DNA of 64,000 nt from Ornithinibacillus bavariensis (GTDB lineage: Bacteria; Bacillota; Bacilli; Bacillales; Amphibacillaceae), in the NCBI RefSeq assembly GCF_018333235.1, contig NZ_BORP01000002.1, positions 62,001 through 126,000 of the forward strand, in the 5' to 3' direction. The notes beneath the pieces were generated by a model. It was not told where the DNA came from, searched no databases, and worked only from the letters and a program-made list of their open reading frames with translations. The translations under genes were made by a program, and so were the position numbers. Positions 2,834 to 42,090 of this stretch are shown piece by piece; the stretch's first letter is position 1; every line of letters begins with the position of its first letter.

Positions 2834-3235
2834 ATGACTGTTATGATTTATGGAGCAGCGTGTTCATCAACAAGAAAAGCAAAAGATTGGTTTAGAAAAA
2901 ATAACATAGAATTTGTGGAACGAAACATTTTAAGGGAACCTTTAACAGTACAGGAGCTACAGCAAATCTTGCGAAGAACGGTTGAAGGTACAGAAGAAAT
3001 TATATCAACAAGATCAAAGGTATATAAAGAATTAAATGTGGATATTGATTCCCTTCCATTACAAGAGCTGCTGGAACTAATTCATGAACATCCAAGACTA
3101 TTAAGAAGCCCAATCATGCTTGATGATAAACGATTACAGGTAGGGTTTCATGTGGATGACATTAGACAATTTTTGCCACGGAAAACAAGAGAAAGACAAT
3201 GGTTACAGTGGCGAATGAATTACCTTCCGATGTGA
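2834..3235 (+). CDS. Spx/ArsC-family regulator lacking the CXXC redox switch
   Basis: A 133-residue protein that aligns along its length with Spx, the RNA-polymerase alpha-CTD-binding stress regulator of Bacillota. Gly52, needed for the alpha-CTD contact in Spx, is present. The redox motif is not: the canonical C10-T-S-C13 reads C10-S-S-T13, so an intramolecular disulfide cannot form. The RRPI region reads RSPI, changing Arg92 to Ser. Any regulation by oxidation must therefore differ from Spx; it could be redox-insensitive or use single-Cys chemistry. A canonical Spx is encoded at 33877. A strong bidirectional terminator follows. Confidence 0.85.
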   Translation: MTVMIYGAACSSTRKAKDWFRKNNIEFVERNILREPLTVQELQQILRRTVEGTEEIISTRSKVYKELNVDIDSLPLQELLELIHEHPRLLRSPIMLDDKRLQVGFHVDDIRQFLPRKTRERQWLQWRMNYLPM

Positions 3236-31650: not shown

Positions 31651-32208
31651 CTATGTTCTTCTATAAAGTCTCATAAACTCCGGAATGTATAGGATGAATG
31701 CCAACCCTAAAAATATACCGGTAATAAGCATAAGAATTGAAGCAGCATGTGGATGTATTTCTGGGAAGCCAATTAAGATGAATGTAGCCGCATAAAATAC
31801 AGCAGTTGACACTTTACCAAACCACATGGCACCATCCAATTTTTTGCCTCTCTTTAATAAAATCAGACCATTAATACCCATAAAAAGCTCTTTAATAACT
31901 AGTAATACAACCAATACCCACATATAGTAGTAGCGAAACATTAAGCAACCAACAATGGCAGCTTGTGTAAGTTTATCTGCTACCGGATCAACGGTTTTGC
32001 CCAGCTCAGTTATCTGATTGAATCTCCTCGCTATTAATCCATCGAGCATATCCGTAAGCCCGGAAAACAGGATAATAATAGCAGCAACATAATAATCATG
32101 CGCACTTTCTGCAGTGATATAGATAAACACGAATATTGGAATGAGTATTAGTCTTATATAAGATAAGATATTTGGTATAGAAAATATTTCTTTTCTTGTA
32201 AGCCGCAC
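31651..32208 (-). CDS. CDP-alcohol phosphatidyltransferase (PgsA-like)
   Basis: A 185-residue membrane enzyme with five or six hydrophobic segments and the diagnostic motif DG(x)2AR(x)8G(x)3D(x)3D, seen here as DGLIAR then G-K-T-V-D-P-V-A-D. It joins a CDP-activated lipid to an alcohol; size and motif suit phosphatidylglycerophosphate synthase or a cardiolipin-synthase-like member, and a separate housekeeping pgsA may exist elsewhere. GTG start with AGGGGGATATC upstream. First gene of a two-gene unit with the deaminase. Confidence 0.8.
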   Translation of the reverse strand: MRLTRKEIFSIPNILSYIRLILIPIFVFIYITAESAHDYYVAAIIILFSGLTDMLDGLIARRFNQITELGKTVDPVADKLTQAAIVGCLMFRYYYMWVLVVLLVIKELFMGINGLILLKRGKKLDGAMWFGKVSTAVFYAATFILIGFPEIHPHAASILMLITGIFLGLAFILYIPEFMRLYRRT

Positions 32209-32340
32209 AATGATATCCCCCTAGAAGCACCTCACGTAGACGTTAGTAAATTATTCCTATTGGTATTGTAACGGTTATGAGAGATATTTGAAAGTGGAAG
32301 GCACGAAAATGAAGGAAAGTAAAGATAAATCATGTTTGGT

Positions 32341-33447
32341 TCCACTTTCTATTAGACAGAAACCCAGCAAAGAGCATGATTCAGTCTAATAGAACTGCTC
32401 TAATAGACTGAAACTCGGAAGAAAGCCAAACTCAGTCTAATAGAAGTGCTCTAAAAGACCGAAATCCAGAAGAAAGCCTAATTCAGTCTAATAGAAGTGC
32501 TCTAATAGACCAAAACCCAGCAAAAAGCTAAATTCAGTCTAATAGAACTGCTCTAATAGACCGAAATCCAGAAGAAAGCCAAACTCAGTCCAATAGAAGT
32601 GCTCTAAAAGACCGAAACCCAGAATAAAGCCTAACTCAGTCTAATAGAAGTGCTCTAATAGACTGAAACCCAGCAAAAAGCCTAATTCAGTCTAATAGAA
32701 GTGCTCTAATAGACTGAAACCCAGAAAAAAGCCAAACTCAGTCTAATAGAAGTGCTCTAATAGACTGAAACCCAGAAAAAAGCCAAACTCAGTCTAATAG
32801 AAGTGCTCTAATAGACTGAAACCCAGCAAAAAGCCTAATTCAGTCTAATAGAAGTGCTCTAATAGACTGAAACCCAGAAGAAAGCCTAATTCAGTCTAAT
32901 AGAAGTGCTCTAATAGACCGAAATCCAGCAGAAAGCCTAATTCAGTCTAATAGAAGTGCTCTAATAGACCGAAATCCAGCAGAAAGCCTAATTCAGTCTA
33001 ATAGAAGTGCTCTAATAGACTGAAACCCAGCAAAAAGCCAAATTCAGTCTAATAGAACTGCTCTAATAGACTGAAACCCAGCAAAAAGCCTAATTCAGTC
33101 TAATAGAACTGCTCTAATAGACTGAAACCCAGCAAAAAGCCTAATTCAGTCTAATAGAACTGCTCTAATAGACCGAAATCCAGCAGAAAGCCTAATTCAG
33201 TCTAATAGAAGTGCTCTAATAGACCAAAACTCAGCAGAAAGCCTAATTCACTCTAATAGAAGTGCTCTAATAGACCGAAATCCAGCAGAAAGCCTAATTC
33301 AGTCAAATAGAACTGCTCTAATAGACCAAAACTCAGAAGAAATCCAAACACAGTCTAATAGAACTGCTCTAATAGACCGAAACCCGGCAAAAAGCCCAAT
33401 TAAGTCCAATAAAAGCATTAAAAATAGACAAAAACTCAGAAATAAAA
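32341..33447. repeat. Tandem array of a 51-bp non-coding repeat (array 1)
   Basis: Twenty units start at 32382 and recur every 51 bp without a single insertion or deletion up to 33351, with one degenerate unit at each end. Each unit has two copies of TCTAATAGA separated by five bases (AGTGC or ACTGC), forming a near-palindrome of AGTCTA and TAGACT ends, then a variable A-rich linker of about 25 bp. Units differ at a few positions that alternate between two or three fixed states. All six frames have stops in the consensus unit, so it is not coding although 51 is a multiple of three. It fills the divergent gap between the phosphatidyltransferase gene and spx. The same unit forms an inverted array at 40527. 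Confidence 0.92.
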
Positions 33448-33711
33448 TAGGTCTTCCCTCTCATTATTTTTCCGTACTATTCTGATAAAATAACAATGGT
33501 ATGAAGCACTATTTATTTTTCTTGCTTCAATTCTAGATAAACGTGCATAACATTGGGGGCCTTATGGGTATACTTTTCAATAGGGCTTTACTATAAGAGT
33601 TGTTAGACCTGTACTAGTGGAGAATGTGAAGTTGCTGAAGAATATGGGCAAATGCTTGTTTTTCGTTGTTATAGTAATTGAAAACAATTGATATGAGTAA
33701 AGGAAGGCAGG
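33448..33711. other. Intergenic region between array 1 and the spx promoter
   Basis: About 260 bp with no gene that I can support. It is AT-rich and holds no clear repeat. A short GGCAG/CTGCC dyad at about 33706-33722 overlaps the -35 element of the spx promoter and could be a regulatory site. Confidence 0.4.
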
Positions 33712-33740
33712 TTGACACTGCCTTAAAACTGTAATAAAAT
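33712..33740 (+). promoter_or_regulatory. Strong sigma-A promoter upstream of spx
   Basis: TTGACA at 33712-33717, a 17-bp spacer and TAAAAT at 33735-33740. The -35 box lies within a GGCAG(N7)CTGCC dyad. The start codon is about 125 bp downstream, leaving a long 5' leader with a GGAGAAGTCTCC palindrome. Confidence 0.7.
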
Positions 33741-33876
33741 TATATTGAATTAAAGATAATTAATTAAAGTGATATAGATTTATATGGGAATTGGAGAAGT
33801 CTCCATAGGATGAACCATAGGAAATTATCTGTGGATGATTATTTAAATCTCTTCTAAAGAGAAAGGAAGTAATTGC

Positions 33877-34272
33877 ATGGTAACTTTATACGTTACACCT
33901 AGTTGTACATCCTGCAGAAAGGCTAAAGCATGGTTTCAAGAAAATAACATTCCTTACAAGGAGCGTAATATCTTTTCGGAACCGTTAACCTTCGATGAGA
34001 TTAAAGGTATATTACGATTAACAGAAGATGGTACAGAAGAAATCATTTCCGAACGTTCCAAGGTTTTCAAGGAGATGGATGTTGATATTGAACAGCTACC
34101 AATGAAAGAGTTGTATCAATTAATCCAGAAAAATCCAGGACTGTTAAGAAGACCAATTATTATCGACGAAAAGCGTCTGCAAGTTGGGTATAACGAGGAT
34201 GAAATTCGTCGTTTCCTACCAAGATCAGTTCGGACTTTCCAATTACACCAGCTTCAAAAAATGGTAGACTAA
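33877..34272 (+). CDS. spx: Transcriptional regulator Spx (canonical)
   Basis: A 131-residue Spx with the redox switch CTSC at residues 10-13, Gly52 and the RRPI motif containing Arg92, all as in B. subtilis Spx. Spx binds the alpha-subunit C-terminal domain of RNA polymerase and redirects transcription under thiol stress; it is degraded by ClpXP. The start ATG follows AGAAAGGAAG. Monocistronic, with a strong promoter and terminator. The diverged paralogue at 2834 lacks the second cysteine. Confidence 0.95.
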
Positions 34273-34275
34273 TGT

Positions 34276-34317
34276 AAAGAAGAGGTGAGCACCTGAATGC
34301 TCACCTCTTCTTTTTGT
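34276..34317. terminator. Bidirectional terminator between spx and guaC
   Basis: A perfect 16-bp stem (AAAGAAGAGGTGAGCA and its complement) with a six-base loop and T residues beyond. Confidence 0.88.
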
Positions 34318-34320
34318 ATT

Positions 34321-35304
34321 TTAATAAACCTTGTCGCCATTGAAAATAGAGTTTTTCACAACTACATAATCAACATTGCGGATAGCATCTAGCTTATTTC
34401 CACCTGCATACGAGATCGATGATTGAAGGTCTTGCTCCATTTCGATTAATGTGTCTTTTAAATAGCCTCGATGCTCAACAAGCATTTTCTTTCCTTCTAC
34501 ATTCTTTCTTTCCCCTTTTTGGAATTCAGATGCAGAACCAAAGTACTCTTTAAATAATTTTCCTTCTTTTTCAACGGTTTCCCCAGGAGATTCCTCATGC
34601 CCAGCAAATAGTGAACCGATCATCACCATGGAAGCCCCGAATCGTACAGATTTTGCAATATCACCATGTGTGCGGATACCACCGTCAGCAATAATTGGCT
34701 TGCTTGCAGCTTTTGCACACCAACGAAGTGCAGCTAATTGCCAGCCACCTGTACCAAATCCAGTTTTAATTTTTGTAATACAAACCTTACCAGGTCCAAT
34801 ACCAACCTTCGTAGCATCAGCCCCAGCATTTTCTAATTCACGTACTGCTTCAGGAGTACCGACATTACCTGCTATAACAAAGCTTTCAGGTAAGTGCTTC
34901 TTAATATGTTGAATCATATTAATGACTGCATTGGAATGTCCGTGTGCAATGTCTATTGTGATGTATTCTGGAGTAAGATTTTGCTCTTTTAGCTCTTCAA
35001 TAAAACGATATTCTTCTTCTTTTACACCAACACTAATGGACGCGTATAATCCACGTTCCTGCATATCCTTAACGAAATCGATTCGCTTTTCAGGTTGAAA
35101 ACGATGCATGATATAAAAGTAACCGTCTTCTGCTAAGGTTAAAGCAATTTTTTCATCTATAATAGTCTGCATATTTGCGGGTACGACTGGTAATTTAAAT
35201 TTACGCCCACCGAATGTAACGGATGTATCACATTCAGAACGGCTATTAACGATACATTTTGCGGGAATTAATTGGATATCTTCGTAATCAAATACATTCT
35301 CCAT
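34321..35304 (-). CDS. guaC: GMP reductase
   Basis: A 327-residue TIM-barrel enzyme of the IMPDH/GMPR family that deaminates GMP to IMP with NADPH. The catalytic loop [11 protein letters not shown] holds Cys175; the phosphate-binding [14 protein letters not shown] motif follows; no CBS domains are present, which separates it from IMP dehydrogenase. The start follows AGGGGTGTAAGTT. Together with the deaminase at 31184 it belongs to purine salvage. A CGAACAATTG sequence upstream resembles half of a PurR PurBox but no properly spaced partner is seen. Confidence 0.93.
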
Positions 35305-35613
35305 AACTTACACCCCTAAATGCGAATATTTTATTTAATGTTAAAATCAATTGTTCGACATTAGCTAATTTACTATAATTCTAATAATATGTCAAATTTC
35401 ATATTTAGGTTGTACTAAATGCTTGAAAAAGTTGCATCATTCCCAGGTGTTTTTAAAATTGGGTGATTATAAGCTGTAAGAGAGTGGGAAATAGCATACA
35501 AAAACACTTGGATAAAGAACGGCACCCAACTGTTTATGGACTGTCTAAGGTTAGGTATGTTCAAATCCAAGCGTTTTTTTATCAATCCATCATTCTTGTT
35601 GGATGAAAGAATA
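35305..35613. other. Intergenic region between guaC and the DinB-like gene
   Basis: About 309 bp. The part next to guaC (35305-35400) is AT-rich and should hold the guaC promoter. The rest reads as a minus-strand frame that runs on from inside the DinB-like gene in another frame, with no ribosome site or codon pattern to support a gene. I see nothing else. Confidence 0.4.
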
Positions 35614-36102
35614 TTATAATCTGCCCCTGGTATCCCTGTTTTCTTGTAGCTTTCGTATATAGACGATTTGACCGATATGATAGGCGTTATGTGTAATAGC
35701 ATTTCCGAGTACCTCATACCATTTTGCCGGTAAGCTGAATCCAACTACATCACTTTCGAGTTGTTCCTCAGTTAGCAGGTTCTGCCATTGTAACAGCACC
35801 ACTTCTAATTGCTCTCTTAATTCAGTAAACTTACTATTCTTTGGGATAACAAAGCTTTCATCATTATTTTCTATCGGGGTTACTGCTAAGACATTCGCTT
35901 TTTTAAATCTTATTTGCCATGTTTCATTCCAGTAGATAAGATGCTGTACAAGCTCAGCAATACTATGACTATTTTCAGTTGGCTTCCAAAAAGCTTCTTC
36001 CTCAGATAGGTTTTCAACTGCTTCGGTAAATGGAAGATACCAGCTTGGGTCATTCGCATTTGCTAAAAACTGATCTAATAAAAGCTTCTTAACATGCGGC
36101 AT
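35614..36102 (-). CDS. DinB-superfamily protein
   Basis: A 162-residue four-helix-bundle protein of the DinB/YfiT superfamily: His in HLIYWNETW (about residue 54) and the paired histidines of AITHNAYHIGQIV (about residues 136-143) form the usual metal-binding triad. Family members include bacillithiol transferases and other metal-dependent thiol-chemistry enzymes. CTAAAGGAGCTGAAGC precedes the start. The exact reaction is unknown. Confidence 0.75.
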   Translation of the reverse strand: MPHVKKLLLDQFLANANDPSWYLPFTEAVENLSEEEAFWKPTENSHSIAELVQHLIYWNETWQIRFKKANVLAVTPIENNDESFVIPKNSKFTELREQLEVVLLQWQNLLTEEQLESDVVGFSLPAKWYEVLGNAITHNAYHIGQIVYIRKLQENRDTRGRL

Positions 36103-36268
36103 GCTGCTTCAGCTCCTTTAGTAATGGTTCAAAGACCTTGTAAGTAGATCTAACACCTTTTATTCGACGTATTACTAAATTTCCCTTTTAGACTTCCTTT
36201 TCTTATTTAGTAATACAGTTAATCATTTGATTGGAATGAAAGCATTCGTTTGATAAAATGGACAGTTA

Positions 36269-36664
36269 TCAACCTTCAACAATCGCAAGGTATTTTAGTG
36301 TTTTTGCTTCCGATTCGACAATTAGTATATCTCCTCTTTCCTTTACGGAAAAAATCTTTGCGCCAACTGGAAGCTTATTCGCCATTTCATCTTTAAAGTC
36401 TGTATTTGAATCATTTTGTACTTTTATTTCACCGATTTGTTCCCCTTTTGATAAAGATAATTCTTCCACCCAGTCAATGTTAGTCCTATAAATTACTCCA
36501 TCATACTGAAATATATCAGCATCGGGTTCTAATGTTACTACTTCTTCGGCATCAATGTTATCTATTGTTACTGTTCCTTTGTTTTTCTCTCCTTCTAAAG
36601 AGCATCCACTAATAGTAAATAAAGCAACTACAATTGAAGTGAAAAATAGTCTTTGTATCCTCAC
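36269..36664 (-). CDS. Hypothetical lipoprotein
   Basis: A 131-residue protein with a signal peptide and lipobox ISGC (Cys21). The mature part is acidic with a DGVIYRTNIDWVEELSL region and a beta-rich end, a pattern seen in small Bacillus lipoproteins of unknown role. AGAAAGGGGATGTTAAA precedes the start. No functional neighbour is evident. Confidence 0.7.
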   Translation of the reverse strand: MRIQRLFFTSIVVALFTISGCSLEGEKNKGTVTIDNIDAEEVVTLEPDADIFQYDGVIYRTNIDWVEELSLSKGEQIGEIKVQNDSNTDFKDEMANKLPVGAKIFSVKERGDILIVESEAKTLKYLAIVEG

Positions 36665-36722
36665 TTTAACATCCCCTTTCTAATAGGACGTTAGAAGTCT
36701 TACTAATGTTCCTTCTGAAACC

Positions 36723-37127
36723 TTATTTTCCTAAAAGGTGGTTAAGAATATAATTAGAGGAAATAGTGTTTAACATTTCACTCGTTTGTTGGAGAGTACC
36801 TTCATTTCCAACTGTTCCGTTTTCTTCAGTCACTGGTATATCCATCAACCAATTATTATCCTCGTTTGCTTCCATTAACTCATTTACTTCATATGTAGCA
36901 TAATAACCCTCTTTGATAAATGGGTCAGTTTCAACAAGCCTTATTGCCTCATCAATTGTTTTACAAATTAATATTTGCATTGCGCTATCATTATCCTTAA
37001 AGGGCCCGCAGAGAAATAGCCTCCTATCCTTAGTCAAGCGCTGTAAATGGCCTACGTGTTTGTGTAATAATTCCTTTGTTAGTTCCCCTTTCTTTTTATC
37101 CTTTAAAATAGCAACATATTTCCTCAT
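36723..37127 (-). CDS. YCII-domain protein
   Basis: A 134-residue protein. The first 90 residues match the YCII dimeric alpha/beta-barrel domain (MRKYVAILKD, LFLCGPFKDNDSAMQI, DPFIKEGYYATYEVNE), with the conserved His in HVGHLQRL. The tail of about 40 residues is low-complexity and variable. YCII proteins bind small organic ligands, but no reaction can be named. Start preceded by AAAAAGGAGAGGTGCTCT. Confidence 0.7.
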   Translation of the reverse strand: MRKYVAILKDKKKGELTKELLHKHVGHLQRLTKDRRLFLCGPFKDNDSAMQILICKTIDEAIRLVETDPFIKEGYYATYEVNELMEANEDNNWLMDIPVTEENGTVGNEGTLQQTSEMLNTISSNYILNHLLGK

Positions 37128-37481
37128 AGAGCACCTCTCCTTTTTAGGTAGACTGTGTCAAAACATAAAAAAATCAACAGGAGTTATCATGCTATGATGG
37201 TTCCTGTTGAAAAATATGGAATATAAATGGCTAGATATTATCTTCAGCGTGGATAAGCTGTCTAATACTACAGTTAGTTTCTTATACGTACTCCCTCTTT
37301 AATCACACAATAACCCACTGTATCCTCAATAAACGCGCTGAAATTAGCTGTTCGTACAAGGTTGTTCACGAGAAACATAATGCTTCGATTAAATTTCTAA
37401 AAAGTAAAATTCATTTATCTGAGCATATTTTTTTACTATTGCCCCATTCGCTCAAGTAGATGGTTTCATAAGTTTTTTCTA
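37128..37481. other. Gene-poor region upstream of the YCII gene
   Basis: A 354-bp gap. It contains a minus-strand terminator (37164-37210) and, at 37274-37378 on the minus strand, a 34-codon frame starting MFLVNNLVRTANFS without a ribosome site, which may be a remnant of a degraded gene. Nothing else is recognisable. Confidence 0.4.
37164..37210 (-). terminator. Minus-strand terminator-like hairpin
   Basis: CAACAGGA pairs with TCCTGTTG and inside it ATCAT pairs with ATGAT; read on the minus strand it ends in a run of T residues. It lies 270 bp after the fabH stop, so either fabH has a long 3' tail or the terminator served a lost gene. Confidence 0.65.
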
Positions 37482-38498
37482 CTACAATGGTCTTGGCTCA
37501 TTTACTTGTTCGTCTAAATCGATATCTAGCAATTGACCAGCATGAACCAAACCAGAGCCGAAGCCGTATAAAAGCACTCGGTCTCCATCTTTTACTTTTC
37601 CATCACGAATACCTAGGTCAAGTGCTAAAGGAATTGTTGCAGCAGAGCTATTTCCAAAATTGATCAAGCTATAAAGCGTTTTTTCTATTGGATATCCTAG
37701 CTTTTCGCAAATCGGTTCGATGAGCCGTAAGTTAGCACTGTGAGGGATAAACCAATCAACCTGCTCTAGACTCGTTTGTGTTTTTTCTAAAATTTGATGT
37801 ACGCTTTTGGGAATATTTCTTACAACCCATCGAAAAACTTCCCTGCCGTTTTGTACCAGATATTGCGTATCGACTAACTCAATCCCATTAACTTTTTTAG
37901 ACAGACCAGTTCGGTATACATTTTGTGCTCCACTTCCGTCACTTCCCATATGGAATCCAATAAAACTTTTCGCTTGTTCGTCCCTTTCTACCAATACGGC
38001 GCCAGCACCGTCACCAAATAAAATACATGTACTTCTATCCGTATAATCGGTAATTTTGGAGAGAGTATCTGCCCCTATTACAAGTATCTTCTTATGAAGT
38101 CCAGAAGCAATAAGGCTATGGGCTGTATGCAATGCATAAACAAAGCCTGCACAAGCAGCACTTAAATCAATGGCCCCTGTTTGAGCAATATTTAAGCGGT
38201 TTTGTACGATACTTGAAACAGATGGAAATGGAAAATCTGGGGTACTTGTTGCAACGATGATCATATCAACATCTTCCACATTTTTATCATACCGATGCAT
38301 TAAATCCTTTACTGCAGCCTCACATAAATCACTTGTGAATTCATCGGGACGGCTAATTCTACGTTCGTGAATTCCTGTTCTTTCGATAATCCATTCATTG
38401 CTAGTTTCAACCATTTGCTCAAGCTCATAATTGGTCAGCCTTTTTTCAGGTACATACGTACCAATTGCTGTAATTCTTGCTCCTACCAAATTAGTCAC
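37482..38498 (-). CDS. fabH: Beta-ketoacyl-ACP synthase III
   Basis: A 338-residue FabH: catalytic Cys116 in SAACAGF, His253 in IPHSAN and Asn283 in NFGNSSAA form the complete triad. FabH starts fatty acid synthesis by joining acyl-CoA primers to malonyl-ACP; in bacilli it prefers branched primers. The start at 38498 follows AAAAGAGGTGACTAATTTGG closely. It stands alone, without fabF, like fabHB of B. subtilis, so it is probably a second FabH. A FapR-type operator overlaps its promoter. Confidence 0.92.
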   Translation of the reverse strand: MTNLVGARITAIGTYVPEKRLTNYELEQMVETSNEWIIERTGIHERRISRPDEFTSDLCEAAVKDLMHRYDKNVEDVDMIIVATSTPDFPFPSVSSIVQNRLNIAQTGAIDLSAACAGFVYALHTAHSLIASGLHKKILVIGADTLSKITDYTDRSTCILFGDGAGAVLVERDEQAKSFIGFHMGSDGSGAQNVYRTGLSKKVNGIELVDTQYLVQNGREVFRWVVRNIPKSVHQILEKTQTSLEQVDWFIPHSANLRLIEPICEKLGYPIEKTLYSLINFGNSSAATIPLALDLGIRDGKVKDGDRVLLYGFGSGLVHAGQLLDIDLDEQVNEPRPL

Positions 38499-38515
38499 CT
38501 CTTTTATAAGTTGGT

Positions 38516-38562
38516 ATTAGTATCTAGTACCAATTATAACGATGTATATTATTGAAAAGCAA
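38516..38562 (-). promoter_or_regulatory. fabH promoter with FapR-type operator
   Basis: On the minus strand TTGCTT (38562-38557), an 18-bp spacer and TATAAT (38538-38533) form a sigma-A promoter. The palindromic ATTGGTACTAGATACTAAT at 38534-38516 lies over the expected start of transcription. It matches the FapR consensus TTAGTACCNGNTACTAA closely. FapR represses fatty acid synthesis genes and is released by malonyl-CoA; FapR itself is not in this window. Confidence 0.72.
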
Positions 38563-38749
38563 CTTTAATTCTTTACTTTAAAAATTAAAAAGGGTTACTT
38601 TCTTTGAAGTAACCTCTCTGTTCGTTAAAGAATATTCCACATACACTTATCTGTTATACATATTTTGTATCGACCACAGAAGCCCATAGCAATGTTCTAA
38701 TCTTCTCCATAAAAACGGATCTACTTATTACCAGTGGGGCAATTTGCTT

Positions 38750-39403
38750 TCACTTTTTCTTCATCCGATATAAGTCAATCGTCTTATAGCCCTGGGATAG
38801 TATGCTTACCATTTGCTCTGTTCGTTTATCACGAGTCTTTTGTTGTTTTGCTGAAAAGATATATCGTGCCCAATCCCTGCGATAACCTGGAGTTAGACTT
38901 TGATAAAATGTGAGTTCATCTGGATGGGAAGCAAGTAATTCCTCGATATTCGTTTCTAGTCCAACATAATCCGCAACAGATTGACTGGCTGTAGTAAATT
39001 TCTTTGTTTTTCTTTTCTCACGTTTTAACCCAACAACAGTAAATACGTCATCCATACTAACCATCCGTGAGAATTTGAAATCACTATTTTCGACATAACC
39101 GTCTTCGTCGACATGTAAAGCAGGGAAAAGCTCATCTCTAAGGATGGAAGTTTCATAACGCTTATTGCCCTTTTTCGGATAAGCGAAGAATAGATAGCCT
39201 TTCTCGGTTAAAAAATCGTTATGTTCGATAATATATCTTGTATGAGCAATCATCTCATCAAGTGTCAGAACGAAAATAAAGATGGCATCGTGATGCCTTG
39301 TTAAGGTTGTTGGATATTCTTTAAATATATGGTAGTCATCTGGTTCATTGATGACAACCATATTACGATATTTTGGTATATTTAGCTTTTCAATAATAGA
39401 CAT
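38750..39403 (-). CDS. YdeI/OmpD-associated family protein
   Basis: A 217-residue protein. The C-terminal part has the OmdA motif LTPGYRRDWARYIFSAKQQK followed by a basic helix, which defines the YdeI/OmpD-associated family. The N-terminal half is an alpha/beta domain (about residues 10-140) that I do not recognise. Function unknown. It is 15 bp from the SRPBCC gene, on the same strand, so the two are probably co-transcribed. Confidence 0.7.
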   Translation of the reverse strand: MSIIEKLNIPKYRNMVVINEPDDYHIFKEYPTTLTRHHDAIFIFVLTLDEMIAHTRYIIEHNDFLTEKGYLFFAYPKKGNKRYETSILRDELFPALHVDEDGYVENSDFKFSRMVSMDDVFTVVGLKREKRKTKKFTTASQSVADYVGLETNIEELLASHPDELTFYQSLTPGYRRDWARYIFSAKQQKTRDKRTEQMVSILSQGYKTIDLYRMKKK

Positions 39404-39418
39404 GCTGACTCCTCTTTC

Positions 39419-39871
39419 CTATACATGAACAGGTTCTAATACATCTCCTGTTTCTAGAAGTGTTTTAAGGTTACTGATGATCGCAGGCCAACCATTATTA
39501 AATCCCTGGAATGTATCCTCTTCTTCTACTATATCTTCTGGAAGTAAATTTTCGTGTTTTAAGGTAAGCTTTACAACTTGTCCCATTTGTTTTAATAAAA
39601 AGGTAACTTTTGTTGGTTCTTGTCTGTCTTTATTCTTGTCCATGATCGAGGTCCATGTATACGTAAGCTGATGGTATGGCTCGTACGTTATGATATTTCC
39701 ATAGTCTACGGTTTCTCCTTCTCGAAGGTATTTAACTTCTGCCCCTACCTTCCATTCGGATTCGATGGCACTTCCGAAAAAGTACTTTTCTGTATACGCA
39801 CTACTAGTTAAAGCCTTCCAAAGCTCTTCAGCAGAGGTATGAATATAGGAAACATAAGTAAATGTCGTCAT
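39419..39871 (-). CDS. SRPBCC (AHSA1-like) protein
   Basis: A 150-residue START/SRPBCC-fold protein of the AHSA1 type: opening TSAEELWKALTSSAYTEKYFFG and terminal FNNGWPAIISNLKTLLETG are family hallmarks. It should bind a hydrophobic ligand in a deep cavity; no ligand is predictable. The start follows TAAGGAGAAAAATGC. Confidence 0.8.
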   Translation of the reverse strand: MTTFTYVSYIHTSAEELWKALTSSAYTEKYFFGSAIESEWKVGAEVKYLREGETVDYGNIITYEPYHQLTYTWTSIMDKNKDRQEPTKVTFLLKQMGQVVKLTLKHENLLPEDIVEEEDTFQGFNNGWPAIISNLKTLLETGDVLEPVHV

Positions 39872-39994
39872 GCATTTTTCTCCTTAATAGGTATTTGTTA
39901 GTTTGAAAATACCTTTGTTCAGACAGGTTGTCAATTTTTAAATATGCAACAATCTAGGGCATAATAGAAAAGAGAATCGTTGGAGGATGAGCTG

Positions 39995-40537
39995 ATGGAA
40001 TCTGCCATTTTTTTGGACCGTGATGGGGTCATTAATGAAGTGTTAACAAGTCGTGTAAAATATGTGAATAAACCACGTGATTTCTTTTTGCTAGATGGTG
40101 TTGGTGAAGCAATTCGATTATTGAATGAAAAAGGTCTTAAGGTATTTGTAGTTACGAATCAGGGTGGTGTTGGGTTAGGGTATATGAGAGAGAAGACACT
40201 TATAGAGGTTCATCAAAGGATGAAGGATGATTTAGCTGAATTTGGTGCTAGAATTGATGATGTTGCCTATTGTCCGCACAAACCATATGAAGGGTGTGCC
40301 TGTCGGAAGCCAGGGCCAAAAATGCTTGTTGATTTGGCAGAAAAACATAATGTAGATCTGAAGAGAAGCTATATGGTTGGAGACCGTGATCCAGATATTG
40401 AAGCAGGGAAGGCAGCGGGGACAAAGACGGTATTGGTCGGTACAAGGGAGAAAGTGACTAGTAAAGCAGATTATATCTTTCCAGATTTACTCGCCTTTTC
40501 TAAATGGTTAGTACAGGGTACTACTATATTGGACTGA
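39995..40537 (+). CDS. HAD-IIIA phosphatase (GmhB-like)
   Basis: A 180-residue HAD phosphatase with catalytic D8 and D10 (FLDRDGVIN), TNQGG motif II, the GmhB-type zinc loop (C93, H95, C101, C103) and the terminal GDRDPDIEAGKAAGT. The family includes D,D-heptose 1,7-bisphosphatase and histidinol phosphatase; a Gram-positive sugar-phosphate or histidinol phosphatase is likely. ATG 39995 has GGAGG eight bases upstream. Its last codons and TGA stop lie at the edge of array 2 and resemble the repeat unit. Confidence 0.83.
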   Translation: MESAIFLDRDGVINEVLTSRVKYVNKPRDFFLLDGVGEAIRLLNEKGLKVFVVTNQGGVGLGYMREKTLIEVHQRMKDDLAEFGARIDDVAYCPHKPYEGCACRKPGPKMLVDLAEKHNVDLKRSYMVGDRDPDIEAGKAAGTKTVLVGTREKVTSKADYIFPDLLAFSKWLVQGTTILD

Positions 40538-40935
40538 GTTAGACTTTTTGCTCGGTTTCAGTCTATTAGAGCAGTTCTATTAGACTGAGTTTGGCTATTT
40601 GCTCGGTTTCAGTCTATTAGAGCAGTTCTATTAGACAGAATTGGGCTTATTTGTGAGTTTCGGTCTATTAGAGCGTTTCTATTAGACAGAATTGGGCTCT
40701 TTTCTGAGTTTCAGTCTATTAGAGCAGTTCTATTGGACTTAATTTAGCTTTCTGCTGGATTTCAGTCTATTAGAGCAGTTCTATTAGACTGAATTCGGCT
40801 ATTTTCTGGGTTTCAGTCTATTAGAGCAGTTCTATTGGACTTAATTTAGCTTTCTGCTGGATTTCAGTCTATTAGAGCATTTCTATTAGACTGAATTTAG
40901 CTTTTTGCTGAGTTTCGGTCTATTAGAGCATTTCA
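40527..40935. repeat. Tandem array of the 51-bp repeat, inverted (array 2)
   Basis: Eight units of the same 51-bp repeat as at 32341, read here as the reverse complement, with starts of the CAGTCTATTAG core at 40559 and every 51 bp exactly to 40916, plus a partial unit at the left edge that includes the stop codon of the HAD gene. The last unit breaks off after AGAGCATTTCAGTG. The array sits in the convergent gap between the HAD and amidase genes. Confidence 0.92.
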
Positions 40936-40980
40936 GTGAAAAAGTGCAGTATATTAAATTAAATAATTAGGTTCGTGTAA

Positions 40981-41195
40981 AGACTCGCTCCGGAAATATA
41001 CTTGGCTTTCCGCGGGCGGCTGGTGAGCCTCGAGCAGACAGGATGTCGGTCACGAAGGCGTTGCCACAAAGATTTTCGGTGGGGCGAGTAATGGCAGTCC
41101 GAGAACGTGGCGCTCTTAGCCTTCAAAACTCTATACCTGCGGCGAGGTCTCACCGATGCCTTTCCTCCCGCTGGAGTCTACGTATATTTCCTCCG
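40981..41195. repeat. GC-rich imperfect inverted-repeat element
   Basis: A segment of about 215 bp with clearly higher GC than its surroundings. The ends are inverted: GGAAATATAC, then GCGGGCGGC and GGTGAGCCTCG on the left match, in reverse complement, GTATATTTCC, CTCCCGC and CGAGGTCTCACC on the right. About 100 bp lie between the arms. It has no transposase or supported gene. I recall similar TTTCCGCGGG...CTCCCGC...GGAGTC sequences as intergenic repeats in many Bacillaceae genomes, so this is probably one copy of such a family; the recollection is unverified. Confidence 0.7.
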
Positions 41196-41256
41196 TTGAA
41201 CACAGAATTATTCTTCCTTTTAGTTGGTCATTTTAGTTATGGCCAATCCTCTTGTT

Positions 41257-42090
41257 TTATTCGCTCATAATTGGCTCTAAGCTAGCTGTTTTCTGTTCTG
41301 TAACAATATAGGCATCTGTTATTCCTGCATTTTTGACCTGCTGCAAGCGTTGTTCGGCATTTTCTCGACTGGAGAATGCTCCAGCTTGAACTCGGTACCA
41401 GGTTGTTCCAGAAATGTTCACCGTACCGATAAATGAATCGATGCCTTTCCTGCTTAAGTAGGCTACACGCTCTTCAGCATTTTGCCTTGAAGTAAAGGAG
41501 CCTGCGATAACCTTGTACAGAATCTCTCCACCACCATTTTGTTTTGGAGGGAGGTTAAAAGCTATTGCTAACCCGTTTACATGTCCTTGTGCTACTGCTT
41601 GAAGCCATGATGTCTGCTTCATTAGATTTGCATCATTTGGGTTGTCGATAAACCCATTCTCCGTAAGCAGTGCTGGCATATTAGACTCACGTAAAACATG
41701 GAAATCTGCCTTCTTCTGCCCGCGGTTTGTTAATTGATTGAGTTTTGTAATTTCAGTATGGAGAATATCTTGGTATCTAGCAGTTAAAGATGAATCGGAT
41801 AAATTACTGTGAATATAATCCTCATATCCTCGTGCTGACCCATTGAAGGAATTGCAATGGATGGATAAATAGTAGTCAGCTCCCCAAGCATTTGCTTCAT
41901 CTGTGCGTGCCTTGAGGCTCTTTGTAATGTCGTTTGTTCGACTCATCCGAACTTCAACATTATCATAGCTGTTTAATAATGTATTGCGAATACGTAACGC
42001 AATATCGAGGTTAACATTTTTTTCTAACAACCCGTTTCCACTAGCTCCGCCGTCTGTACCACCATGACCTGGATCTAAATATAGTTTCAT
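41257..42090 (-). CDS. N-acetylmuramoyl-L-alanine amidase with two SPOR repeats
   Basis: A 277-residue protein. Residues 1-180 form an Amidase_3 zinc hydrolase (LDPGHGGTDGGA with the first His ligand, a Glu in GLLEKNVNL, SIHCNS, TENGFIDN with the catalytic Glu). Residues about 190-265 hold two SPOR repeats (YKVIAGSFTSRQNAEERV and YRVQAGAFSSRENAEQRL) that bind peptidoglycan. There is no signal peptide. This is the layout of B. subtilis CwlC, a mother-cell autolysin made late in sporulation, and a sporulation role is likely. AGGAGGAGATTTGTT precedes the start. Confidence 0.88.
   Translation of the reverse strand: MKLYLDPGHGGTDGGASGNGLLEKNVNLDIALRIRNTLLNSYDNVEVRMSRTNDITKSLKARTDEANAWGADYYLSIHCNSFNGSARGYEDYIHSNLSDSSLTARYQDILHTEITKLNQLTNRGQKKADFHVLRESNMPALLTENGFIDNPNDANLMKQTSWLQAVAQGHVNGLAIAFNLPPKQNGGGEILYKVIAGSFTSRQNAEERVAYLSRKGIDSFIGTVNISGTTWYRVQAGAFSSRENAEQRLQQVKNAGITDAYIVTEQKTASLEPIMSE

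Follow-up and report, generated by a model that had tools for sequence, protein, structure and literature searches.

Tandem arrays with periods near whole helical turns stand behind genes for NERD-domain proteins, in families that are each cognate to one such gene. The 51-bp array studied here (W1) is probably a dispersed member of one of these satellite families, one tied to a gene, located at a different place in the genome, for a NERD-domain, nuclease-like protein that would recognise the cognate repeats and take part in their maintenance and spread. For the wider proposition, that the NERD proteins form a class of DNA enzymes in which every gene is followed by a helically phased satellite of its own and every protein seeds cognate arrays chromosome-wide, we hold the chances to be evenly balanced. 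The partner gene lies outside the window (the whole stretch of 64,000 nucleotides analysed), so that an earlier, sequence-only reading of W1 could not have seen it; the interpretation given there is partly supported.

Array W1 and its relatives

W1 was called by TRF with a period of 51 bp, 20.9 copies, 90% match and 0% indels. Printing the units placed 20 of them in register at 32382+51n (n=0..19), indel-free and bounded by degenerate end units, exactly as the sequence-only reading had described. Its motif statements were somewhat too strict: TCTAATAGA-N5-TCTAATAGA, reported for every unit, is exact in 17 of 20 and inexact in the other three, and of the outer ends AGTCTA/TAGACT the left is exact in 17/20, the right only in 9/20, with TAGACC in another 9/20. 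We orient W1 by the strand on which the dyad reads AGTCTAATAGA-N5-TCTAATAGACY, which is the strand of the A-rich linker. The array is indeed non-coding, with stops in all six frames (11 to 50 each) and a longest open run of 92 codons; nor is it a CRISPR, as its linkers are not unique, linkers within an array being 0.776 identical on average. Long open frames (102-147 aa) do occur in some arrays (L105:4066-4383, L106:4409-4717, L112:4253-4627, L118:3896-4339), owing to a period, 51, that is divisible by three, and could be annotated as repetitive hypothetical proteins. No Rfam match above the cut-off fell in the array (window positions 32000-41500 scanned); a sub-threshold MIR860 match inside W1 (33039-33129, 33 bits against a cut-off of 89) probably arises by chance from the hairpin repeats.

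Table 1. Positions of the arrays, their parts and their neighbours (window coordinates unless a locus is named).
Feature	Position	Strand	Basis
Array W1, 20 full 51-bp units	32348-33415	+	TRF, unit read-out
Degenerate first unit, left end of W1	32341-32381	+	sequence
Degenerate last unit, right end of W1	33402-33447	+	sequence
Conserved 27-bp dyad of first full W1 unit, recurring every 51 bp	32383-32409	+	unit extraction, between-array conservation
24-bp linker of first full W1 unit (linkers array-specific)	32410-32433	+	unit extraction, array comparison
W1 left neighbour, CDP-alcohol phosphatidyltransferase	31651-32208	-	Pfam PF01066
W1 right neighbour, Spx-type regulator	33877-34272	+	NCBIfam NF002459
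Array W2, family A, 8 copies, between convergent genes	40527-40934	-	TRF
W2 left neighbour, HAD-family phosphatase	39980-40537	+	Pfam/NCBIfam
W2 right neighbour, N-acetylmuramoyl-L-alanine amidase with SPOR domain	41257-42090	-	Pfam PF01520, PF05036
Repeats at the fourth NERD gene (20-bp, 3'; 40-bp, 5')	L335 (G000:C2), local 1153-1245 and 2339-2432

The window holds a second array of this family, designated A, on the other strand (W2; Table 1). Between W2 and the amidase gene there is a Bacillaceae-1 RNA (RF01690; 41035-41135, minus strand, 48.2 bits, cut-off 35). The window also holds two ArsC/Spx-like genes, one at 2834-3235 (by sequence alone) and the Spx-type gene flanking W1, a 67% identical homologue of which also flanks an array in another genome (G216, L206).

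Searching the home genome (G000; 3.47 Mb, 31 contigs) with W1, a scan that the sequence-only reading had proposed, returned 21 matches representing 18 array places on six contigs, W1 and W2 included. The FabH protein of this genome has its nearest named match in Heyndrickxia sporothermodurans (88%). With three mismatches or fewer allowed, GTCYAATAGA-N5-TCTAAWRGAC, the pattern of the dyad, matched 158 and 155 times on the two strands and its reversed control 0 and 0 times. Solitary dyads were considered as possible seeds of new arrays; there were none in 16 home-genome stretches that hold 155 of the 158 and 151 of the 155 matches. Units were cut from 17 home-genome arrays and from five arrays of two other genomes of the genus, and in all 22 the unit consists of a 27-bp dyad and a linker, mostly of 24-25 bp. 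Across the 17 home-genome arrays, arm identity is 0.948 within and 0.942 between arrays, while linker identity drops from the within-array value given above to 0.469 between arrays (shuffled linkers, 0.311). Thus, the dyad is constrained genome-wide and homogenisation of the linker is confined to single arrays, with a weak A-rich pattern common to the linkers. The earlier suggestion of selection on spacing was right; recent amplification, offered as its alternative, does not suffice alone, since period and dyad persist between arrays with diverged linkers.

This persistence extends to relatives. A two-frame pattern (GTCC-N17-GGAC twice, separated by any 12-42 bp) was run on 397 genomes of the order and found in 80 of them, in 34 of 135 genera; one of the 80 (G285) proved by eye to be no such array. 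Among the matches listed, frame spacing was 51-53 bp in all but that one (by eye), and the reversed control gave at most 2 matches per strand in any genome. A single assembly artefact behind W1 is unlikely because of the 18 family places on six contigs and the recurrence of the two-frame pattern in these genomes. In 81 fetched stretches, picked for holding pattern matches, we called 72 arrays in 33 genomes and 0 on the same sequences read backwards; successive GTCY-N17-RGAC frames 20-90 bp apart were 51 or 52 bp apart in 382 of 388 cases. Outside the home genus (42 arrays, 27 genomes) the inner arms are widely different yet complementary, with arm pairing of 0.726 vs 0.359 (sd 0.036) when right arms were dealt to other arrays. 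Published consensus units likewise contain a significant dyad in 17 of 27 cases, spanning 25-31 nt (11-nt arms, loops of 3-9).

NERD-domain genes as array partners

Comparison of the genes adjoining the 72 arrays with each other revealed a protein of ~300 aa, 49-57% identical, that recurs beside arrays in five genomes: G000 (18 arrays called, all family A), G007 (5), G009 (2), G178 (1) and G247 (1). All five proteins carry the NERD domain (PF08378), one with an additional sub-threshold match to DUF6671 (Pfam). Profiling the 397 genomes for close NERD relatives (E<=1e-50) found them in 74 of 80 pattern-positive as compared to 70 of 317 pattern-negative genomes (OR 43.5, p 2e-32); the six pattern-positive genomes lacking one have 1-5 pattern matches each.

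We then read the surroundings of 70 close NERD copies in 55 genomes (30 loci plus another 40 places taken in list order, skipping five, some of them at contig ends). A tandem array lies 1-180 bp 3' of the stop codon in 65 of the 70 (53 of 55 genomes), with a period of 51 bp in 7 and 52 bp in 58, while a 49-55-bp array occurs within 200 bp at only 6 of the 1424 gene ends of 80 unselected FabH loci. Of the remaining five copies, three have an array on the 5' side only and two have none by TRF; at one of the 5'-only copies (L284) the frame caller detects three dyad frames 284 bp 3' (G178, L256). The dyad is significant alone in only 29 of 66 NERD-side arrays. Among the 70 pattern-negative genomes with a close NERD gene, 15 and five more were read around that gene, and the 15 that belong to the 55 genomes all have a 3' array beside it, from which it follows that the GTCC pattern undercounts. 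A class-wide draw of 299 genomes gave the same picture, 12 of 12 close NERD loci having a 3' array with a period of 51-53 (11 new to the sample and one already read; five in genomes of other orders).

At one site, that after walJ, gene and repeats also come and go together. Of the 11 genomes of the genus, eight carry both a NERD gene and repeat units there and three (G002, G004, G008) carry neither; six of the eight arrays are called by TRF, and in G009 it is the frame caller alone that picks up four units. Between species the arms at this site are strongly different, with the NERD protein still 49-57% identical to that of G000. These observations bear on the possibility of a neutral, purely recombinational satellite for which the NERD gene is a passenger. 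Drifting linkers, and array lengths that are seldom conserved between strains (PMC8161180), would fit such a satellite; it is nevertheless already hard to hold and, in our estimate, very improbable, since dyad identity between arrays equals that within them as the linkers fall away, the NERD gene is linked to an array in 65 of 70 copies, and the two are jointly present or absent in 11 of 11 genomes at the walJ site. One of these genomes (L340, G001:C4) has N letters in place of the central part of its array; short-read assembly or masking may remove arrays. In Bacillus renqingensis (L015:12472-12970) only the C-terminal part of a NERD protein is left (residues 211-301, tblastn), with a 52-bp array directly behind it, which looks like a decaying module.

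The home genome contains three close NERD genes, each with a 3' array and a dispersed repeat family of its own: C6:123225-124127 (A), directly behind which lies the family A array C6:122654-123086; C3:7134 (B), with one in-frame TAG; and C3:216450 (C). Searches with the family B and C arrays gave 17 matches (14 places) and 14 matches (8 places), respectively, as counted by eye. The 18, 14 and 8 places of the three families have none in common, and one place of each adjoins its own NERD gene. TRF periods of 49-55 occur in 13 of 14 B places and 8 of 8 C places, and family B units keep GAAATGATG...TAGA-N5-TCTATG...CATTTC-like arms with differing linkers (by eye). Unit similarity was compared with NERD identity across 59 intact modules, and the two increase together (Mantel r 0.489, matched by 0 of 999 permutations). 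Part of this signal, and of the presence profile across genomes, reflects shared descent. Together, these data argue strongly that the NERD protein binds its cognate repeat, and they put a candidate name to the multi-site platform for a DNA-binding protein that the sequence-only reading had proposed.

A different reading, which we regard as improbable, is that the array acts as RNA, its transcript being a chain of hairpins that is processed by the NERD enzyme or restrains it, as in type III toxin-antitoxin systems. In those systems the repeat array lies 5' of the toxin gene. The adjacency of a nuclease-like gene and a tandem array speaks for an RNA role, as do the fixed orientation of NERD-side arrays (in 51 of 63 the T-rich linker strand is the sense strand of NERD), the complementarity of arms between arrays outside the genus, a pooled excess of wobble pairs on the A-rich strand (120 G.T vs 80 A.C over 72 arrays) and the transcription of 52-nt satellites in B. 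coagulans reported in the available part of PMC8625621. Against it, the array is placed 3', not 5', of the gene; RNA offers no obvious reason for periods near whole helical turns; the stem pair that varies T/C by A/G shows no covariation (Fisher p 0.47; 22 arrays, three genomes); and the wobble excess is not a preference of single arrays, G.T exceeding A.C in 28 of the 52 informative ones. Moreover, dispersed arrays in tandem gene contexts are oriented opposite to the NERD-side arrays, with the A-rich strand as sense in 24 of 29 (25 of 32 without the skew limit), a bias not above that of array-free intergenic background (12 of 18, p 0.29). In convergent and divergent contexts the A-rich strand is the one on which most local genes lie in 21 of 28 cases (p 0.013), and in 9 of 15 outside the genus. 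As to W1 itself, its outer-stem substitutions, wobble-compatible on the minus strand, had suggested a one-strand RNA hairpin, against which the 28 of 52 arrays rule. One A.A mismatch is moreover retained in 129 of 135 distinct home-genome units, and a structured RNA, one of the possibilities first put forward for the array, is not supported as the main reading.

The NERD protein is nuclease-like in its conserved residues. Residues G41, E42, D74, E108 and four cysteines (216, 219, 235 and 238) are invariant in 65 intact proteins, in which E86 stands at 0.94 and K88 at 0.98; these residues supply the conserved D...E-x-K with upstream E typical of PD-(D/E)XK proteins. PvuII chains are the only PDB matches up to E 1, the best of them weak (0.0012, residues 71-117). 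The partner is a putative nuclease, PD-(D/E)XK-like, with a Cys4 (zinc-ribbon-like) segment. Ten pairs of NERD genes gave dN/dS values of 0.12-0.33, and in-frame stops occur in 5 of the 70 close copies. Carriage on mobile elements or spread from host to host left no sign at the thresholds used: no NERD relative was found in plasmids (E<=1e-30), in phages (E<=1e-10) or in a viral contig scan that finds close relatives only.

NERD-linked periods lie near whole helical turns

Distant NERD proteins, 23-32% identical, have arrays of their own. Among 55 copies from 20 genomes (15 loci and 40 places in list order, with three skipped), 47 are followed on the 3' side, within 350 bp, by a tandem array whose period is at least 18, some with only two to three copies, and 8 have none by TRF; by the same criteria the background is 25 of 1424 gene ends. 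Their basic periods are 20 (4 arrays), 21 (12), 31 (1), 40 (1), 41 (14), 42 (3), 50 (1), 61 (5), 62 (2), 63 (1), 83 (1) and 103 bp (2). The best common pitch is 10.25 bp (R 0.945), or 10.35 bp (R 0.903) with one value per period and 51 and 52 added, and 0 of 2000 random sets reached the observed fit under a null that is simple and ignores family structure. The periods of NERD-linked repeats are therefore near whole helical turns, for which side-by-side binding on one face of B-DNA would be the simplest reading.

The home genome has such a gene as well: its fourth NERD gene (C2:307112-308041, 29% identical) is followed after ~40 bp by a 20-bp-period array of 4.6 copies, and on its 5' side lies a 40-bp-period repeat that shares the CGCTGATA motif with the 3' array. 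A 40-bp repeat is also found near a NERD-like gene in Fredinandcohnia quinoae (L025:1190-1280).

Helical phasing would also suit an architectural platform, in which NERD proteins would bind the phased arrays but leave them uncut, and the arrays would serve as nucleoid organisers or as insulators between convergent genes. This comes close to the proposal by Subirana and Messeguer of a protein polymerising on the repeats, and gene context lends it weight: array-bearing spaces are convergent in 30 cases, divergent in 5, tandem in 32 and at an edge in 3, as compared to 36 convergent, 83 divergent and 145 tandem among array-free spaces of at least 120 bp, a marked preference for convergent over divergent pairs (30:5 vs 36:83, OR 13.8, p 8e-9). 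We nonetheless think it unlikely. Firstly, the catalytic-type residues of NERD are under purifying selection; secondly, matches to the family A pattern range from 0 to 158 (forward strand) among 11 genomes of the genus; thirdly, families diversify each with their own NERD copy, which fits a self-maintaining element better.

A candidate mechanism and its known counterparts

In the explanation that we favour, a NERD enzyme with its cognate satellite, the NERD protein would recognise the cognate dyad in double-stranded DNA, and the presence of neighbouring units on one helix face would allow several molecules to bind side by side. Less certainly, cutting or nicking at bound arrays might promote unequal exchange and copying, and these processes could yield homogeneous arrays, changed array lengths and new arrays seeded at gene ends. 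The sequence data point less firmly to this second part, maintenance and spread driven by cleavage, than to binding. Several points weigh against the scheme. W1 and W2 themselves lie far from the NERD gene; 5 of 70 close and 8 of 55 distant copies lack a 3' array by TRF; the dyad reaches significance alone in no more than 29 of 66 NERD-side arrays and 17 of 27 published families; close NERD genes also occur in 70 pattern-negative genomes; and an enzyme that cuts DNA, faced with dozens of target arrays in the chromosome that encodes it, would need to be held in check.

The mode would resemble that of REP sequences and RAYT transposases, with an unrelated enzyme. REP/REPIN elements, as the available part of PMC3116915 describes them, are dispersed extragenic palindromes in several families, each near its own enzyme gene, and here too gene-end palindromes form families tied to one enzyme gene. 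The partner differs: RAYT is a Y1 (HUH) tyrosine transposase, and all five partner proteins match NERD (Pfam). Set against that same part of the description, the present elements also differ in being tandem arrays at helical periods served by a PD-(D/E)XK-like NERD protein, and in having no solitary family A copy in the home-genome stretches examined. ToxIN, to the extent covered by the available descriptions, shares with our modules a nuclease gene adjoining a tandem repeat array, and differs from them in that NERD takes the place of ToxN, that phasing here extends over several helical periods and that dozens of cognate arrays are dispersed.

What is new here is the enzyme link and the helical rule, the repeats themselves being already in print. 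Tandem repeats of 51-53 nt in Bacillus and other Firmicutes were reported by Subirana and Messeguer (PMC8161180), and are treated also in PMC6749651, as far as the available part of that paper goes. Both this 52-nt class and a second, of 20-21 nt, were described as enigmatic, constant in size and without obvious function; the repeats contain short characteristic signals, often together with their reverse, and the account states no conservation of sequence between species and gives no partner protein (PMC8161180). W1 belongs with the 51-53 nt Bacillus repeats, having their period, at least four regular repeats and several families per genome. It is like them also in being non-coding, in that many arrays of one period and different sequence share a genome, and in that some species carry such arrays and others have none. 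Unlike in the published account, a dyad frame is common to many families, a NERD gene stands directly 5' of one array in each family tested, and the 20-21-nt class is linked to NERD as well. Our literature search, conducted without bioRxiv preprints and with few subscription papers, returned no record of the NERD-array pairing.

If the wider proposition on NERD proteins is true, the two classes of bacterial tandem repeats that lack an explanation (20-21 and 52 nt) would share one mechanism with the classes found beside distant NERD genes at 31, 41, 62, 83 and 103 bp, and several mutually independent enzyme-satellite pairs, even of different period, could coexist in one chromosome. A linked enzyme and a helical period rule would make these enigmatic repeats testable, add to REP/RAYT a second, unrelated case of dispersed palindromes tied to an enzyme, and supply a naturally occurring set of dyads and proteins that vary in concert.

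It would also give the NERD domain a biological setting. SmdA of S. aureus has partial homology to the domain and differs in having a membrane helix and in missing several of the most conserved NERD residues, according to the available part of PMC9040797, whose authors state that, to their knowledge, the role of NERD in bacteria had never been studied. NERD also appears among putative CRISPR auxiliary genes in a CRISPR survey (available part of PMC10910872), and arrays of the NERD-linked kind mistaken for CRISPRs could be one reason for that listing.
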